From IMG/VR virus record IMGVR_UViG_3300044611_001359, positions 1 to 42,087 of that record: 42,087 nucleotides of DNA; one strand, written 5' to 3'. A model generated the notes under the pieces. It saw only the letters and a list, made by a program, of their open reading frames with translations, ran no database searches and had not been told where the DNA came from. Of this stretch, positions 2,035 through 34,174 are shown one piece after another; position 1 is the stretch's first letter, and each line of letters starts with the position of its first letter. The position numbers and the translations under genes were made by a program. Origin of the DNA: a virus.

Positions 2035-2610
2035 TTATCCAATGAGCTTGAGGACTTCAGCTCGCGCCGAGTCCTCGTTCCGAAAAACACCGTTCATCTT
2101 GGACGTAATCATGACCGACCCGGGCTTACGGACACCGCGGCAGGACATGCAAGAGTGGTGGGCACGAACAACGACAGCGGTCCCGAGGGGTTGCAAGTGT
2201 CGTTCCATTGCGTCGGCAATGTCTACGGTCATGCGCTCCTGGATCTGCAACCGCTTACTAAAACAGTCAACCAGGCGCGCCAGCTTGCTCAGTCCAACGA
2301 CCTTGTTGTTCAAGCCAGGCAAGTAAGCAATAGACACCTCGCCCATAAACGGGAGGAGGTGGTGCTCACAAAGGGACGTGAAGGCAATGTCCTTGAGCAC
2401 GATTATTTCATCGTACTCGCAGACAAACCGGCGTTCAAGTATCTCCCCGGGGCTCTGGTCGTACCCGCTGAGCATCTCGCGGAACGCGTTCACAACTCGC
2501 TTGGGCGTGTCGCGAAGCCCGTCCCGGTTGAGGTCCTGGTCGAACTCCTCGAAGAGGGACTCCAGAGCAACGTGCATCTTGTTTACCGTCTCGTCACGAG
2601 AGATTCCCAT
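2035..2610 (-). CDS. folE: GTP cyclohydrolase I (FolE)
   Basis: This 191-aa protein catalyses GTP to 7,8-dihydroneopterin triphosphate, the first step to tetrahydrofolate and to 7-deazaguanines. It has the GTP cyclohydrolase I zinc site: CEHHLLPF supplies Cys and His, and CMSCRGVRKPGS supplies the second Cys. RDGLRDTPKRV near the N-terminus and QIQERMT are also family motifs. ATG 2610 is chosen because AGGAG lies about 8 bases upstream inside the end of queE; a TTG 9 bases earlier is less likely. It is the last of four queuosine-type genes in the order queC, queD, queE, folE, so it most likely feeds preQ0 synthesis for DNA modification and not folate. Confidence 0.96.
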   Translation of the reverse strand: MGISRDETVNKMHVALESLFEEFDQDLNRDGLRDTPKRVVNAFREMLSGYDQSPGEILERRFVCEYDEIIVLKDIAFTSLCEHHLLPFMGEVSIAYLPGLNNKVVGLSKLARLVDCFSKRLQIQERMTVDIADAMERHLQPLGTAVVVRAHHSCMSCRGVRKPGSVMITSKMNGVFRNEDSARAEVLKLIG

Positions 2611-2611
2611 G

Positions 2612-3244
2612 TTACTCAACTCCTAGCAGTTTGTGTGTCTGCAAGGAGATGTTCCACCCACCCCGTGGGTCGGACATAGCGAGCTTGACACACCAGTCGA
2701 GGTTCTCTTTGATAAACGCGTCCGGCCCCTCCTTAGACGGGTCGGTCATTGGGCTGAGGTACTTACGTAGATAGGTAACTCCGTAGGGCACTTCTGGGAG
2801 GGGGTCGCCCGCCTTGAGCACGTATTTCAACTCCGTGCAACTCCGCTGGAAGATCTCGCTGCCAGGCTCGCTCGGCTTTGGCGACATGCACACGTGGTCC
2901 AGCCCGAGGTTGCCAATGTAACGAGTGCCGTTGGTCTCAATGGCAACCACCTTGAAATGGTTCCGCATACGTCCAACGAGCTCAGCGTCTAATTGGAGCG
3001 CAGGCTCTCCACCCGTGAACACTAGCAGTGGCTCTGCCAACTGCTTTCCGAGGATGGCAAGCTCCAGGTCGTCGAGCGAGTACGAGGTCCCGCCTTTGAA
3101 GTTGGTGTCGCAAAACGAGCAATCGAGGTTACACCCCGCGAAGCGACAGAACACGGCAGGGGTGCCGGCCCACATGCCTTCCCCCTGTATGGTCCTGAAT
3201 ATGGACTTGACAGAGTAACGTTTAGGTATCACGGTAAGGCTCAT
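2612..3244 (-). CDS. queE: 7-carboxy-7-deazaguanine synthase (QueE), radical SAM
   Basis: This 210-aa protein converts 6-carboxy-tetrahydropterin to 7-carboxy-7-deazaguanine with S-adenosylmethionine and a 4Fe-4S cluster. The cluster motif is GCNLDCSFCDTNF (C-x3-C-x2-C). Other family marks are FRTIQGEGMWAG at the N-terminus, LVFTGGEPALQ (the GGEP SAM-binding motif), VAIETNGT and CMSPKPS. ATG 3244 overlaps the queD stop as ATGA; the frame extends upstream but only over queD. The length is normal for a compact QueE. It is translationally coupled to queD above and folE below. Confidence 0.96.
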   Translation of the reverse strand: MSLTVIPKRYSVKSIFRTIQGEGMWAGTPAVFCRFAGCNLDCSFCDTNFKGGTSYSLDDLELAILGKQLAEPLLVFTGGEPALQLDAELVGRMRNHFKVVAIETNGTRYIGNLGLDHVCMSPKPSEPGSEIFQRSCTELKYVLKAGDPLPEVPYGVTYLRKYLSPMTDPSKEGPDAFIKENLDWCVKLAMSDPRGGWNISLQTHKLLGVE

Positions 3245-3771
3245 GCGTCTACGACCTTCCCGCCAAACGGCCAAAGACCCTCAGTGGACTCCGTGAGGTT
3301 CGACACGCTCACACGGTTGGTGGACGTCTCCCACAGGTCAACGGTCGTTTTGAAACCCATTTGCGCGAGCTCAACGAACGAGCTCTTGAACGCGTTGCTG
3401 AGCTCGTGGCATAAGAGCTGAGCAATGTTCTCGGCAGTGGGCATCACGGGGAGCACGACAGGCACCCATAAGTCTACCGGGACGTGAGCACGCAACGGGT
3501 CCCCCTCCCAGACAAAGAAGGCGTGGTCGTACGAGCTGCAAACGTCTCGGACGGCTTGCTTGAACTCGCCAAAGTCGACAACAAAGCCTTGCGGACTGTG
3601 GTTGCGGACGTTTGTGATTACCGTCACTTGGAGGCGATAATTGTGTCCGTGGATGAACTGGCACGCTCCCGAGTGGTGCGGTAGACGGTGTCCCGCCGGA
3701 AACGAGTGCTCGGCGGTTACGAGTACCTCAGCGGTAGGCGCGAAGATGCTTATAGGTTTGATGGAGCTCAT
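3241..3771 (-). CDS. queD: 6-carboxy-5,6,7,8-tetrahydropterin synthase (QueD)
   Basis: This 176-aa T-fold enzyme makes 6-carboxy-tetrahydropterin from dihydroneopterin triphosphate. Zinc ligands are visible as the His of AEHSFPAGHRL and the two His of FIHGHNY, and the catalytic Cys lies just before them in ACQFIHGH. DFGEFKQAV and SYDHAFF match the conserved DF..(L)K and (L)DH elements, and PTAENIAQ matches the PT(A/S)EN motif. ATG 3771 overlaps the queC stop as ATGA, and its own stop overlaps the queE start, so the three genes are tightly coupled. The C-terminal third is slightly longer than in the smallest QueD proteins. Confidence 0.95.
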   Translation of the reverse strand: MSSIKPISIFAPTAEVLVTAEHSFPAGHRLPHHSGACQFIHGHNYRLQVTVITNVRNHSPQGFVVDFGEFKQAVRDVCSSYDHAFFVWEGDPLRAHVPVDLWVPVVLPVMPTAENIAQLLCHELSNAFKSSFVELAQMGFKTTVDLWETSTNRVSVSNLTESTEGLWPFGGKVVDA

Positions 3772-4472
3772 ACGGCAGGCTCCTCGTAGATGGTCGGGTC
3801 GGGGATGCCTGCGAGCTCGAAGGCTTCCTTGCGTTCGACGCAAGTGCCGCAGCGTCCGCAGTGCAGCGTTCCGCCGTTGTAACAGCTCCACGTGTCCTCG
3901 TACGGGACTCGAATCCCGTACTCCAGGGACTCGCTGAGGATGCCGTGCTTCGTGAGCTCAGCGTAAGGCGCAGCGAGCGTGGCGGGGTCCCAGTCCCCGA
4001 GCCTGAGGACCTCCCGTACTGCGTCAACAAACTCAGTGCGGCAATCGGGGTAGATGTCGTGGTCCCCCTTATGCGCACCGTAGGCAACAACGTTGCAATC
4101 GGCCTCCTTAGCGATGGAGGCGGCGGTCGCGAGCATAACGAGGTTGCGGTACGGGACGACAGTAGACTTCATGGACTCGGCTGCATAGTGCCCTTCCGGC
4201 ACCGGAGCGGAGCCCGTGAGCGAGCCAACAGAGCCGAGTTGGATAGACGTCTGCCGGTGGCTCAGCGTCCCGTAACCTTCACGGGGTGCGGCGGAGAAGT
4301 TGTATCCAATGACCACGTCACGAGCTGCGCAGAGCTCGCGCTTGGAGTGTCGCTGTCCGTACCGGAAGGACAGAGCGAGTACCTCATGCCCGAGGCTGAG
4401 ATACTTGTAGACGAGGCAGGTCGAATCGAGACCCCCGGAGTAGATTACGCAAACGCGGTTGGGCTTTCCCAT
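3768..4472 (-). CDS. queC: 7-cyano-7-deazaguanine (preQ0) synthase (QueC)
   Basis: This 234-aa protein is an ATP-dependent ligase that turns 7-carboxy-7-deazaguanine and ammonia into preQ0. The N-terminal PP-loop is YSGGLDSTCLVY. FRYGQRHSKRE and VPYRNLVMLATAASIA are classic QueC elements, and the C-terminal zinc knuckle is WSCYNGG followed by HCGRCGTCVERKEAF (four Cys). There is no fused glutamine amidotransferase domain, so this is plain QueC and not Gat-QueC. ATG 4472 has AAAGG upstream. It is the first que gene after the ParB-like gene, which ends 2 bases before it. Confidence 0.96.
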   Translation of the reverse strand: MGKPNRVCVIYSGGLDSTCLVYKYLSLGHEVLALSFRYGQRHSKRELCAARDVVIGYNFSAAPREGYGTLSHRQTSIQLGSVGSLTGSAPVPEGHYAAESMKSTVVPYRNLVMLATAASIAKEADCNVVAYGAHKGDHDIYPDCRTEFVDAVREVLRLGDWDPATLAAPYAELTKHGILSESLEYGIRVPYEDTWSCYNGGTLHCGRCGTCVERKEAFELAGIPDPTIYEEPAV

Positions 4473-4474
4473 GG

Positions 4475-5071
4475 TTATGCCTTTCGTTTGACGGCAGAGC
4501 GAGCGCGTGTGGCACGGCAGAGCTCGGTAAGGAACTCCGCCACCTGTACGTCCTCGCTCGCCTGAGCTGAGTATGCCGCCATAATGGTTTTGGTTTGGTC
4601 CTCATTAAACTGGACACGGAGGCGCTCCTCCGGGTCGTCCTCGTCGCTGCGCTCGCGTGGCTTCCAATCCTGAGCAGTAAACAACGGCTTCAACTCGTAC
4701 TCGGAGAAGCCCGTCGTATCCATGTCCACTTCGAGGTCGCTCAGCTCTTTAAGGATCTCGGTCAAGCCAGCATAGTCGAACTCCGAGAGGTCGCTGGTCT
4801 TGTTGTCCGCGAGCATGTAGGCAAGCTCTTGTTCTGGGGAGAGGTCCGCCACGACATATTCGATGGTGTCCCACCCAAGTCGCTTGACCGATTCGAGCGT
4901 CCCGTTGCCCTTGAGGACTTGGTTACGCTTGTTGACCACCACCGGAGTACGTTGTCCAAACGCCTCGAGGCTGGCCATAATGGAGCCAATGTTCCGCTCG
5001 TCATGCGTTCGCACGTTACGCGGGTGCGGTTTGAGTTTGAGCGGGTTGGCTAGCTTTACTGCCAATGCCAT
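4475..5071 (-). CDS. ParB/sulfiredoxin-fold protein, possible DpdB-like partner of DpdA
   Basis: The N-terminal half of this 198-aa protein matches the ParB N-terminal (Srx/ParB-nuclease) fold: LKPHPRNVRTHDERNI, then SIMASLEAFGQRTPVVV, and GNGTLESVKRLGW in place of the usual G(H/E)RR motif. ELAYMLADNKTSD also fits the family. The C-terminal half is acidic then basic (RATRARSAVKRKA) and has no helix-turn-helix I can recognise. ATG 5071 has a strong GAGGAG site. It sits directly ahead of queC-queD-queE-folE. In bacterial dpd islands a ParB-superfamily protein, DpdB, works with DpdA, so a DNA-modification role is inferred. A free-standing ParB-like nuclease is the alternative. Confidence 0.75.
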   Translation of the reverse strand: MALAVKLANPLKLKPHPRNVRTHDERNIGSIMASLEAFGQRTPVVVNKRNQVLKGNGTLESVKRLGWDTIEYVVADLSPEQELAYMLADNKTSDLSEFDYAGLTEILKELSDLEVDMDTTGFSEYELKPLFTAQDWKPRERSDEDDPEERLRVQFNEDQTKTIMAAYSAQASEDVQVAEFLTELCRATRARSAVKRKA

Positions 5072-28524: not shown

Positions 28525-28697
28525 GTGGCACCTCCGTTGCGCTCAGCGTCTCGCCGGTCCAGCTCCTCAACTCGCTTGTTGATAATGGGTGCGGGCTCGG
28601 GGCTCAACTTGTACTTGATGGCAATACAGACAGCGACAAACGCAATGGCTATGGTCACCATCACTACTGCCTCAAACCTCTGGTACGTGCTCTTCAT
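28521..28697 (-). CDS. Small single-span membrane protein (58 aa)
   Basis: ATG 28697 overlaps the stop of the upstream gene and TGA 28521 overlaps the next ATG, both as ATGA. The protein has MKSTYQRFEA, one membrane helix (VVMVTIAIAFVAVCIAIKY), then a charged tail (INKRVEELDRRDAERNGG). This resembles spanin-type or small holin proteins that sit beside lysis genes, and the following gene encodes an exported protein. A lysis role is plausible but not shown. Confidence 0.65.
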   Translation of the reverse strand: MKSTYQRFEAVVMVTIAIAFVAVCIAIKYKLSPEPAPIINKRVEELDRRDAERNGGAT

Positions 28698-29035
28698 CCC
28701 GGCGTCCTCAATTTGACCTGCTTCAAAATAAGCTGGGCAGTCTTGCGCAGCTCGTCCGCGCTCAGCCCGGCGTATGGGTTGGTTATCATTTTTGGATCCA
28801 GGACTCGTTGCACCGGCGGCCCGACGATGTAGTCGGCGATGAACTTCCGGGCGTCTTTGTCGCCCTTGCGTGCCTGCTCCAGAGCTTTCTTAATAACCTT
28901 CTCGAACTCTGCTATCGTCACGACTTTCGTGAACGCTTTCAGATACGTCTCTTCAACTATCTTGGGTGGACGTCCCCTGGCGTTCCCGGTGCTCCCGGGC
29001 AGTATGCGTCCTTGGGCATCCCTTGACGGCGTCAC
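28694..29035 (-). CDS. DUF5681-like protein, possible terminase small subunit (113 aa)
   Basis: The start is GTG 29035, 10 bases after GGAGG; there is no suitable ATG, and the longer frame would begin upstream of the transcription start. The N-terminal VTPSRDAQGRILPGSTGN, GRPPK and the helix EKVIKKALEQARKGDKDARK followed by DYIVGPPVQ match the pattern of short proteins often beside terminases (GNPxGRPK..., GD.(K)A...(L)...GKP). As the first late gene it is the best candidate for the small terminase, but seven small genes separate it from terL, so this is only suggestive. Confidence 0.58.
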   Translation of the reverse strand: MTPSRDAQGRILPGSTGNARGRPPKIVEETYLKAFTKVVTIAEFEKVIKKALEQARKGDKDARKFIADYIVGPPVQRVLDPKMITNPYAGLSADELRKTAQLILKQVKLRTPG

Positions 29036-29082
29036 ATTTAACAAGCCTCCATGATTAACGTTCCCTATGCTTGACGGATAGA

Positions 29083-29111
29083 AGTATAGCACCAGACTAT
29101 ACTCGAAACAA
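29083..29111 (-). promoter_or_regulatory. Late-operon promoter, sigma70-like with extended -10
   Basis: Minus strand TTGTTT (29111-29106), 17-base spacer, TATACT (29088-29083) preceded by TGC. It shares GGTGCTATACT with the promoter at 5834-5862. It lies 48 bases before the GTG of the first late gene; no other good promoter is seen in this gap. Confidence 0.7.
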
Positions 29112-31235: not shown

Positions 31236-32903
31236 CTACTCCGTGGCACCAAACCCGCAGGTCGCTTTTACGGACACCCCGCCTCGCGTTGCAAACTCGC
31301 CCGAGACGACAACGCCCAGAGGGTGGACTGCCTCAAAAAACTCCCGGGCCAAACGAGCAACAAACGCCTCGTTGAACACTCGTACACCATACCACTTTTG
31401 CAACCAGATTTTGAAGGACTTTGTCTCCACAATGTGGTCGCTCACCGTGTACGAGACAAGCAGCGTCGAATAGTCCGGCTGTCCCGTTACGGGGCACCGC
31501 GTGCTAAACTGCTCACACGTGAGGTGGACGTTCATGCCCCGGGGGATACCCAGGATCTCGATGGGGATGAGGTCCAGCTCCACGTCCTGGGAGGCGGGGT
31601 CCACGGCACCGAGCTTGGGCGCGAGTTTCTCGGGGTCACTCTCCCCCAGGAATTTGGGCTCCCACTCAACACGTCCTTCCTCGGCAGCCTGCGCGAGCAA
31701 CGTGGCAGCGAGCGGGTCCGCGTCTGCGAGCTCAGCAACGAGCCCAAGCAGCTCAGCGGCACGCGGATCCTCGAGAACGACACGCGCCGACGGCTCGCGC
31801 TCACCGCGGCAGTAGACACAGTTGCACCCGGGCTCCGAGGGGCACGCGGGATCTGCCGGCAGTTTGAGGTCCTCAGCCTCCTTCTTCGAGCAGCTCGCGC
31901 AAATGACCGGGAATCCGTCCTGAGCCCGGTAATTGATTTTGTTGTGGCAGACGCGGCACTCGCTTTCAAATACGGCGACCTGGTAACTGGCCTCCTCGGG
32001 CAGCGTGCCCACAATGTCGCGTCGGTCGTCTGGGTAACTCGGGTTGGCTATGCCGTCCATAAACAGTGCATCCTTTCCAATAGATACGAGGTGCTCGGCC
32101 GGGACGCTCATGAGTCCTCCGACACCCTCAAAGGTTATAAGAACGTACTCGGGGTCCGTCGCGGACTCGCGAGCAGCGTATTGCATACTTGAGATGGTGA
32201 GTGCCTCCTTGTTGGAGTAGACAACGCCGTGCTTCACGAGCGCCGAGGGGTTGAGCTTGTCCCCAATGGCAACCCCAAACAAGCGGCGCCACTCGCTGGC
32301 GTCTGCGGCGTTTGGACTGCCCTCGTGGAGTGCTTTCCGGTGTGCCGCCACTTCGTCGCCGTGTGCGCCAGAACCAACCACTTCGACCTCGGGATCTGCG
32401 TCGCAGAACACGTAGGCAGCGTACCAGCGCGGGTCGGGGACTATGCCTCGCTCGTTTATGCCGTTGACGCGGTATTGCTGCAAGCCCCCAAAGATGCGAG
32501 ACTCCGAGATGCGGTATACAGGGGCCACAGGGTCAAGGAGTATGCGGTACTCCTCCTTCACCGATACGAGCGCACCCACAGGCCACTTGGACGCCTTGGG
32601 CTTGTGCTCAACTGGTGGCAGCTCAGCGACGAACGGCACGTCCTCATAAGGCTTCACGTCCTCAACGTCGAACCAGCGGACTCGCGAGCTGTGACCCGCC
32701 TTACTGCGCCGACACGCTCGCACAAGGACGGACTCTCGAACCTCTCCTGGGGCGGAGGCTGCCGGACCCATGATGGTCGAGACGTTAAGCTCGCCCCGGA
32801 CCTGCTTGGCGTCAATAACTTCGCACACTGCTCCGACGCGGTACTGGCTCACTTTCTCAGGCGAGCGCACCACCTCAACTTTGTCTCCAATGTTGTATCT
32901 CAT
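31236..32903 (-). CDS. Multidomain protein with C-terminal QueF-like preQ0 reductase domain (555 aa)
   Basis: Residues ~1-100 (MRYNIGDKVEVVRSPEKVSQ...) and ~105-155 (WPVGALVSVKEEYRILL) look like SH3/KOW-type barrels. The middle is unrecognised. CRVCHNKIN with ICASC (about 318-340) and CNCVYC (about 362) form zinc-ribbon-like knuckles, then comes an acidic helical linker. Residues ~440-555 match QueF: FSTRCPVTGQPDY (Cys470, Asp477), ETKSFKIW (Glu493, the NADPH motif), FNE (Asn511, Glu512) and RGGVSV. Spacing equals B. subtilis QueF (Cys55, Asp62, Glu78, His96, Glu97), but Asn replaces His96. QueF reduces preQ0 to preQ1. Possibly this one acts on preQ0 in DNA. ATG 32903 has GGAAGG. It is the last early gene. 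Confidence 0.85.
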   Translation of the reverse strand: MRYNIGDKVEVVRSPEKVSQYRVGAVCEVIDAKQVRGELNVSTIMGPAASAPGEVRESVLVRACRRSKAGHSSRVRWFDVEDVKPYEDVPFVAELPPVEHKPKASKWPVGALVSVKEEYRILLDPVAPVYRISESRIFGGLQQYRVNGINERGIVPDPRWYAAYVFCDADPEVEVVGSGAHGDEVAAHRKALHEGSPNAADASEWRRLFGVAIGDKLNPSALVKHGVVYSNKEALTISSMQYAARESATDPEYVLITFEGVGGLMSVPAEHLVSIGKDALFMDGIANPSYPDDRRDIVGTLPEEASYQVAVFESECRVCHNKINYRAQDGFPVICASCSKKEAEDLKLPADPACPSEPGCNCVYCRGEREPSARVVLEDPRAAELLGLVAELADADPLAATLLAQAAEEGRVEWEPKFLGESDPEKLAPKLGAVDPASQDVELDLIPIEILGIPRGMNVHLTCEQFSTRCPVTGQPDYSTLLVSYTVSDHIVETKSFKIWLQKWYGVRVFNEAFVARLAREFFEAVHPLGVVVSGEFATRGGVSVKATCGFGATE

Positions 32904-32932: not shown

Positions 32933-33130
32933 CTACCGTTTTGAGAACTCGGGGTGCTGCTCCACGTACTCGTCCACAGACATGTTCCAGAGCTCGTTGG
33001 CGCGCTTTACGTCCTTCTTGATACCCTGGTACTGGTCCCCTTCGTAATACTTGTTGGCAGCGTTGTCCTTATGGTGCTCTATTTTCTCGTAGGACACTTT
33101 CCGTCCTTTGTGGTAGTACCGCGTAGCCAT
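32933..33130 (-). CDS. Small charged protein after dpdA (65 aa)
   Basis: The start is ATG 33130, overlapping the dpdA stop (TAATG). ATRYYHKGRKVSYEKIEHHK, then NELWNMSVDEYVEQHPEFSK. Very basic N-terminal half and acidic C-terminal half, rich in Tyr and His. No family recognised. Tight coupling to dpdA suggests a partner or regulator of DNA modification, but this is only position-based. Confidence 0.68.
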   Translation of the reverse strand: MATRYYHKGRKVSYEKIEHHKDNAANKYYEGDQYQGIKKDVKRANELWNMSVDEYVEQHPEFSKR

Positions 33131-33924
33131 TAGAGCACCGACAACGCGTGACGCCACATGGCTTTCAACTTGCGCTCCATTTTTAGTGCTATGTCTATCT
33201 CACCCTTTACGGCAAGGTACCCCTCGCGCCCACCGAGGCGCACTGCCCCCGTCTTACGCTTCCCGCCGAACGCTCGGTAGTTGCCAAACCGAGGACCCGA
33301 CACAAGCCAGGACGTGGCGTCCGCACTTTGGAACGGGTACGCCATGAGCATTTCTTCTTTGACCCACCCAAACGAGTGGAACGCATGGGGCCAGCAGGCC
33401 GAGAAGCAACTGTCGTAGAACCTGAGGGACTCGCGCACCGGCTCGCCAAAACGACATGAGAGGCCGACCTTGCCAAACTCTGCGCAGTACTTCTCCAGCC
33501 ACTTGAGGTCCTCGCCAATGTGGAAAACAGGCATAACCTCTCGCCCCAGAACGTCCCGCATACGTGAACAATTGGCGTAGGTGTACTCAGCATCTCCCAC
33601 GCGGTCGAGGCCTACAATCTCAGTCCATCGGTCCCGGTCAATTTGAGCCTGGGACTTAATGAAGGCAATGTACTCGTCCACGCAGAGCTCGCGACCCAGG
33701 TTCCACATTGTAAAGGCACCACTGTCCAGCATGGTCTTTCTGGGGTGGAGGAAGCCCGTGCTTTTGTCGAGGTGCTTAATGGTCGCTTGGTACGCGTTTG
33801 TGAACAGCAAGTTGACGGGCTTGTCGCGCCAGGGCCAGTCGTCAAACGCAGCGTGGAGCACGGGCCCGCTCTGCGCAATGGCGAGGTAAAGGTCAAACTC
33901 AACAGGGGGTTTCTTACTTGGCAT
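33130..33924 (-). CDS. dpdA: DpdA-type 7-deazaguanine DNA transglycosylase (264 aa)
   Basis: A TGT-like enzyme predicted to replace guanine in DNA with preQ0 or preQ1. TIM-barrel marks: LFTNAYQATI, KTMLDSGAFTMW (Asp67, matching the general acid-base region of TGT), VGLDRVGDAEYTYAN, VMPVFHIGED (His135), GKVGLSCRFG, HSFGW and MAYPFQSADATSWL (Asp202, nucleophile candidate), ending near GPRFGNYRAFGGK. Phage and bacterial DpdA proteins share this layout and lack the tRNA-binding PUA domain. The start is ATG 33924 with AAGGAAG upstream. It is in the same operon as the que genes and directly upstream of the QueF fusion. Confidence 0.85.
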   Translation of the reverse strand: MPSKKPPVEFDLYLAIAQSGPVLHAAFDDWPWRDKPVNLLFTNAYQATIKHLDKSTGFLHPRKTMLDSGAFTMWNLGRELCVDEYIAFIKSQAQIDRDRWTEIVGLDRVGDAEYTYANCSRMRDVLGREVMPVFHIGEDLKWLEKYCAEFGKVGLSCRFGEPVRESLRFYDSCFSACWPHAFHSFGWVKEEMLMAYPFQSADATSWLVSGPRFGNYRAFGGKRKTGAVRLGGREGYLAVKGEIDIALKMERKLKAMWRHALSVL

Positions 33925-34174
33925 GGGCGTCTTCCTTTCGCACGAGGCGCAACGGTTGTACCTTTTCGTAACTCGGTATACTGATGTCGTGGTAGGTGTG
34001 CTCATCTCCGGGAGCGCCGAGGGGTCGCAACCAGACGCACCCACCGCACTTGCTCACGAGGCTGAACGGCTCGTTGTGGTGCAGGCAGTGCAACTCCTCG
34101 AGTTCACTAGCCCAGCACTCCTTGTGGACTCGTATGAGTACGAGTTCAGCGACAGCAATCTTGGGCTCAGGCAT
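33914..34174 (-). CDS. Small Cys/His-rich probable zinc protein (86 aa)
   Basis: The start is ATG 34174, in the end of the upstream gene. ELVLIRVHKECWASELEELH, CLHHNEPFSLVSKCGGCVW: Cys and His spacing (C...CLHH...CGGC) suggests one zinc site. The C-terminus is basic (VQPLRLVRKEDAHAK) and overlaps the dpdA start by 11 bases. No family recognised. It may help DNA binding near DpdA, from position only. Confidence 0.68.
   Translation of the reverse strand: MPEPKIAVAELVLIRVHKECWASELEELHCLHHNEPFSLVSKCGGCVWLRPLGAPGDEHTYHDISIPSYEKVQPLRLVRKEDAHAK

Follow-up and report, generated by a model that had tools for sequence, protein, structure and literature searches.

What does a QueF enzyme do in a phage when it is fused to some 410 further residues and its active-site His has become Asn? 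The question is raised by an IMG/VR record from an uncultivated tailed phage. The window analysed here is that entire record, linear and 42,087 bases long, with its main genes all on the minus strand. An initial annotation read one gene as a QueF domain fused to SH3-like and zinc-ribbon modules, and suggested either that the fusion moves the reduction onto phage DNA or that the Asn signals a different reaction on the nitrile.

A fused reading frame beside dpdA

The fusion gene and its neighbours, with the evidence for each, are as follows.

31236..32903, minus strand: QueF fusion gene, 555 residues (open reading frame and translation, SD-like site, third-position GC)
31239..31664, minus strand: QueF T-fold domain, residues ~414-555, with Cys470, Asp477, Glu493-Lys495-Lys498, Asn511 and Glu512 (profiles, alignment, AlphaFold2/Foldseek)
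31674..32903, minus strand: N-terminal extension (residues 1-410), no relatives detected (all searches negative)
31887..31961, minus strand: possible zinc ribbon C316/C319/C335/C338, residues 315-339 (sub-threshold matches only)
32933..33157, minus strand: 74-residue ORF between dpdA and the fusion gene (ORF list)
33130..34044, minus strand: DpdA-type DNA guanine transglycosylase, of the subtype found in FNE-QueF phages (phrog_887, E 3.2e-33)
2035..2619, minus strand: FolE, GTP cyclohydrolase I (profile matches)
2612..3274, minus strand: QueE, 7-carboxy-7-deazaguanine synthase (profile matches)
3241..3891, minus strand: QueD, 6-carboxytetrahydropterin synthase (profile matches)
3768..4472, minus strand: QueC, the preQ0 synthase, lacking a fused amidotransferase domain (TIGR00364, 161.7 bits)
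4475..5071, minus strand: ParB-like protein that travels with the cassette (profile match, relatives' loci)

The fusion frame opens with an ATG at 32903 and closes with a stop ending at 31236. All 555 codons first read there are present, coded on the minus strand with 0 internal stops, and the record sequence carries no stop or frameshift between the N-terminal part and the QueF domain. A purine-rich, SD-like GAAAGGAAGG lies upstream of the ATG, and third-position GC (GC3) hardly changes along the frame, at 0.72 up to codon 440 and 0.73 beyond it. None of the three internal starts inspected, those nearest the QueF part (TTG402, GTG434 and ATG457), is preceded by an SD-like site, and ATG457 falls within the QueF domain itself. 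Judged by these sequence features, queF proper has lost its start codon, and the frame across the fusion is genuine, with an SD-like site at its ATG only and uniform GC3. An assembly or sequencing artefact that merged two genes could be suspected in a gene seen on one uncultivated contig whose relatives carry QueF stand-alone; yet at the point corresponding to the start of the stand-alone genes no SD-preceded start codon is left, and GC3 stays even across the junction, so we regard an artefact as highly improbable.

Long QueF frames also occur at other retrieved loci (L numbers). Most were set aside as over-called starts, either because GC3 is clearly lower in the N-terminal part than in the QueF part, as in L005, L008, L021, L156 and L209, or because the translation reads as non-coding; L020, L021 and L028 also have longer frames, and these too are best read as over-called starts. 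In L140, L121, L085 and L066, GC3 matches between the two parts. Two Alphaproteobacterial-type QueFs (L229:4623-5330 and L204:2437-3156) have an in-frame N-terminal HTH-like part, matched by HTH_3 in the former (E 1.2e-8) and HTH-like by eye, with no Pfam match, in the latter. Two phage QueFs (L177:3840-5261 and L135:3849-5327) hold an intein, with Intein_splicing and HNH matches, at the catalytic Cys, QueF Cys55 being the first residue after the intein.

That the phage modifies its DNA had been assumed, and the window does encode FolE, QueE, QueD, QueC and DpdA, from which the modification itself is predicted. The dpdA gene lies just upstream of the fusion gene, with the 74-residue ORF in between. 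An amidotransferase domain on QueC, absent here, marks dG+ phages; phrog_1550 matches the window QueC from profile position 146 only. A search of the window for a second QueF returned the fusion protein and FolE only. Near the terminase gene, positions 28694-29092 encode a DUF5681 protein.

The QueF domain and its Asn511

The C-terminal QueF assignment stands on several matches. Pfam PF14489 matches residues 476-548 with 53.6 bits (E 2.7e-14; gathering cut-off 27.3 bits), TIGR03139, the NCBIfam preQ1 synthase model, matches residues 455-549 with 75.3 bits (E 3.4e-21), under its equivalog cut-off of 86.9 bits, and B. subtilis QueF (4f8b) aligns to residues 455-552 (E 1.6e-13). AlphaFold2, run with 36 sequences, models the QueF domain at pLDDT >90, and Foldseek with this model finds 4f8b (E 4.6e-10) and also the archaeal QueF-Like 5jyx, in agreement on a T-fold. 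From about residue 414 (WEPKFLGES) onward the sequence is homologous to stand-alone relatives, which makes the QueF part about 142 residues long. The identical spacing first noticed for Cys470, Asp477, Glu493 and Glu512 is exact in the alignment, where these residues and Asn511 fall on B. subtilis positions 55, 62, 78, 97 and 96, respectively, and the proposed retention of the NADPH motif is borne out by E493, K495, S496 and K498 in ETKSFK. QueFs are defined by catalytic Cys55, Asp62 and Glu97 plus a QueF motif with Glu78, His96 not being among these residues (PMC5372742); the window protein has all four, as Cys470, Asp477, Glu512 and Glu493. Unimodular QueFs have fewer than 200 residues and a single T-fold, and the window protein has one T-fold in 555 residues.

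The domain is nevertheless the most derived of its clade, with an end branch of 2.05 in the tree. Three residues in columns that are 97-98% conserved are unique to the window copy (Q465 for E50 and Y505 for R90, both at 98%, and V487 for P72), and Phe514 stands in place of Cys99, a protective cysteine not needed for activity (PMC5372742). Together, the sub-cut-off TIGR03139 score, the long branch and these unique residues make a changed or lost activity possible. A decaying, inactive QueF that leaves the phage DNA with dPreQ0 only would suit the branch and the score, but the family-defining residues are all kept and the frame is intact through 555 codons, and we consider decay very unlikely.

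The change of FHE to FNE is real, His96 of B. subtilis being Asn511 in the window, and it is shared with proteins that have no extension. Stand-alone FNE QueFs occur in six IMG/VR phage loci (L018, L020, L021, L022, L028 and L031). TIGR03139 scoring took in five of them, all but L021, and these reach 108-117 bits, all above the cut-off; the QueF of L178, the closest bacterial relative, which sits among ordinary chromosomal genes, reaches the same range. The DpdAs of the six phages are the six nearest to the window DpdA (E between 1e-43 and 1e-51, against 6e-22 for the one after them), and counting the window, FNE QueF goes with the closest DpdA subtype in 7 of 7 cases. L020 shares most of the window gene order. 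The tree places the window within the viral FNE clade (97% SH-aLRT) and Verrucomicrobial FNE genes elsewhere, from which it follows that the Asn arose more than once.

The position varies well beyond this clade. Across 150 distinct viral QueFs, a set retrieved by similarity whose counts are not population frequencies, it is H in 81, and the remaining proteins have C, N, M, A, G, Q, Y or V; in the same set Cys55, Asp62 and Glu97 are invariant and Glu78 differs once. Among bacterial loci, the 80 nearest to the FNE set have H in 63 and N in 8. Five of eight FNE bacterial genomes checked (G081-G084 and G087) have one QueF each, with the FNE motif, alongside Tgt and QueA, several of the checked genomes being draft metagenome genomes in which a second QueF copy could be missed. 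V. cholerae QueF H233A, a Foldseek match, was crystallised with ligand (4ghm). By these sequence comparisons Asn511 is best taken as natural variation at an active-site position that tolerates change, and not as the novelty; since relatives without a fusion share the Asn, the Asn change and the fusion are not coupled. The variability of the active-site His across viral and some bacterial QueFs is a caution against inferring function from that residue.

The suggestion that the Asn points to a different reaction thus loses its footing, FNE being common to stand-alone QueFs that pass TIGR03139 and to chromosomal QueFs that are the only copy found. A different fate for the nitrile, whether conversion to dG+ by ammonia addition or the absence of any reduction, could still be argued from the derived residues Q465, V487, Y505 and N511, from the same T-fold underlying QueF-L, and from a clade member, L271, whose lost NADPH motif indicates that the clade can drift. 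Against this, the window protein retains E493, K495, S496 and K498, and Asn occupies the His96 position in sole-copy bacterial QueFs beside Tgt and QueA; we judge a changed reaction improbable. L271:926-1390 is itself a candidate for such a change on its sequence: it adjoins an A4-type DpdA, reads VVSTESMGAYL where the NADPH motif would be, and has STPD for GQPD.

Loss of the His as a marker of DNA-level action was rejected for lack of association with DpdA. Flanks with DpdA hold 52 H and 38 non-H QueFs and flanks without it 29 H and 31 non-H (p 0.32); in whole records, whose contigs are partial, the counts are 47/11 and 13/9 (p 0.08), in the direction opposite to the marker idea. Among viral QueFs, His96 and Cys99 covary: 63 of the 81 His-type proteins carry Cys99 and none of the 69 non-His proteins does, as raw counts that include shared ancestry. 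Cellulophaga phage phi38:2 (L327) has Gln at this position (YQE) in a QueF that passes TIGR03139 with 96.3 bits, and a gene between its queF and dpdA (L327:5407-6060) encodes a CxxCxxCC zinc/iron-chelating-type protein. A single-cell Verrucomicrobia genome (L194; G086, contig 125) carries an FNE QueF, and the contig that holds it has two weaker Tgt-like matches as well; a search for QueA in L194/G086 found none, and the locus is possibly a cellular DNA-modification locus.

The N-terminal extension

The extension is the part of this protein for which we found no counterpart. tblastn against phages and plasmids, and IMG/VR scans with the extension and with the full-length protein, gave no credible relatives of it, and phmmer against all ORFs of ~326 fetched loci returned nothing credible, the best match being an antisense frame in L044 (E 0.01-0.02). 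As far as these sequence searches reach, the in-frame extension of ~410 residues is the new element, found nowhere else in the searched phages, plasmids, IMG/VR and loci. We call it unique because the searches with residues 1-410 failed, not because every other QueF stands alone. The closeness of dpdA and queF in relatives makes insertion and in-frame fusion the simplest history: a separate coding segment of ~410 residues would have entered between dpdA and queF and joined the queF frame, at the cost of the queF start.

Of the modules assigned to it by the initial annotation, the large fused part is real, the zinc ribbon is plausible and the SH3-like module has no profile match. The predicted ribbon, at residues 315-339, consists of two CxxC knuckles (C316-X2-C319-X15-C335-X2-C338) with sub-threshold matches to DUF4428 (E 0.22) and phrog_6739 (E 0.023), and further Cys residues follow at 354, 360, 362 and 365. 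Searches of Pfam, NCBIfam and PHROG gave no SH3-like or KOW match in the extension. AlphaFold2 models residues 1-95 alone at pLDDT 44.5, and Foldseek with this low-confidence model gives non-significant matches (E 0.2 or worse), mostly SH3-type barrels; both AlphaFold2 models obtained, this one and the one that gives the QueF domain its high pLDDT, are of low confidence over the N-terminal part. The extension possibly contains small beta domains together with the zinc ribbon.

Could the extension hold QueF on DNA? In such a scheme DpdA would insert preQ0, and the fused QueF, tethered through the extension, would reduce dPreQ0 to dPreQ1 within the polymer. Precedents can be cited: archaeal QueF-L works on preQ0 in tRNA (PMC5485725), and phage DpdAs insert preQ0, the step order for phage QueF being stated as unknown (PMC6884629). 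No QueF was seen within the retrieved DNA of the A4-type loci L270 and L272, so that DpdA subtype may work without preQ1. The window itself offers no positive evidence for reduction on DNA. The extension segments have pI values of 7.8, 5.5, 4.8 and 5.7, neutral to acidic and mostly acidic, values that do not point to unspecific DNA binding; profile searches and Foldseek found no recognised nucleic-acid-binding domain in it; the NADPH motif is kept; and this DpdA subtype is also served by FNE QueFs that stand alone. Reduction in the polymer is unlikely on this evidence, and if true it would mean a nitrile reductase acting on DNA and would fix the step order in phage 7-deazaguanine modification. 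Two DpdA-type genes occur per phage in L018 (2170-2970 and 4165-4935) and L270 (5992-6765 and 8616-9422).

A probable preQ0 reductase and its known counterparts

We propose that the fusion protein is the phage's only QueF and that it probably carries out the NADPH-dependent reduction of preQ0 to preQ1 for DpdA, leading to dPreQ1, with the extension outside the chemistry. FolE, QueE, QueD and QueC alongside DpdA make this reduction the likeliest role, and the gene content FolE-QueD-QueE-QueC-DpdA-QueF predicts dPreQ1 under published rules with Streptococcus phage Dp-1 as the example (PMC6884629). From the gene, its domain and residues, the cassette and the relatives, we infer enzyme activity, step order and a role for the extension as follows. 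The phage's FolE, QueD, QueE and QueC would make preQ0, the fused QueF would reduce free preQ0 to preQ1 with NADPH, and the neighbouring DpdA would exchange guanine in phage DNA for preQ1; the resulting dPreQ1 may protect the DNA from host restriction. The extension would take no part in the chemistry; its likeliest role, at a guess, is to dock the enzyme to DpdA, to DNA or to the replication machinery, or to steer it there.

With unimodular QueF (TIGR03139; B. subtilis 4f8b) the window protein shares the T-fold, the Cys-Asp-Glu set, the ExKxxK NADPH motif and the exact spacing. It differs in the ~410-residue extension, in Asn for His96, Phe for Cys99 and Gln, Val and Tyr at E50, P72 and R90, and in its sub-cut-off score. 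Archaeal QueF-L lacks the NADPH motif; the window protein shares its fold and thioimide-forming Cys (5jyx, 5k0p) but retains ETKSFK, which sets it apart from QueF-L (archaeosine synthase). The archaeal enzyme uses ammonia on preQ0 in tRNA (PMC5485725).

Another close known counterpart is the modification cassette of Dp-1, which has DpdA and QueF and contains dPreQ1 in its DNA (PMC6884629). Both phages combine FolE, QueD, QueE, QueC, DpdA and QueF; in Dp-1, by contrast, QueF is stand-alone and keeps His, and the gene order and DpdA subtype are other than in the window. The six IMG/VR FNE pairs share with the window the DpdA subtype, the FNE motif and ParB and QueC nearby, and differ in that their QueF stands alone a short distance downstream of dpdA. 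The substrate of phage QueF, free preQ0 or DNA, is stated to be unknown (PMC6884629), and the fused QueF and its stand-alone relatives, which work with one and the same DpdA subtype, form a natural test pair for that question.
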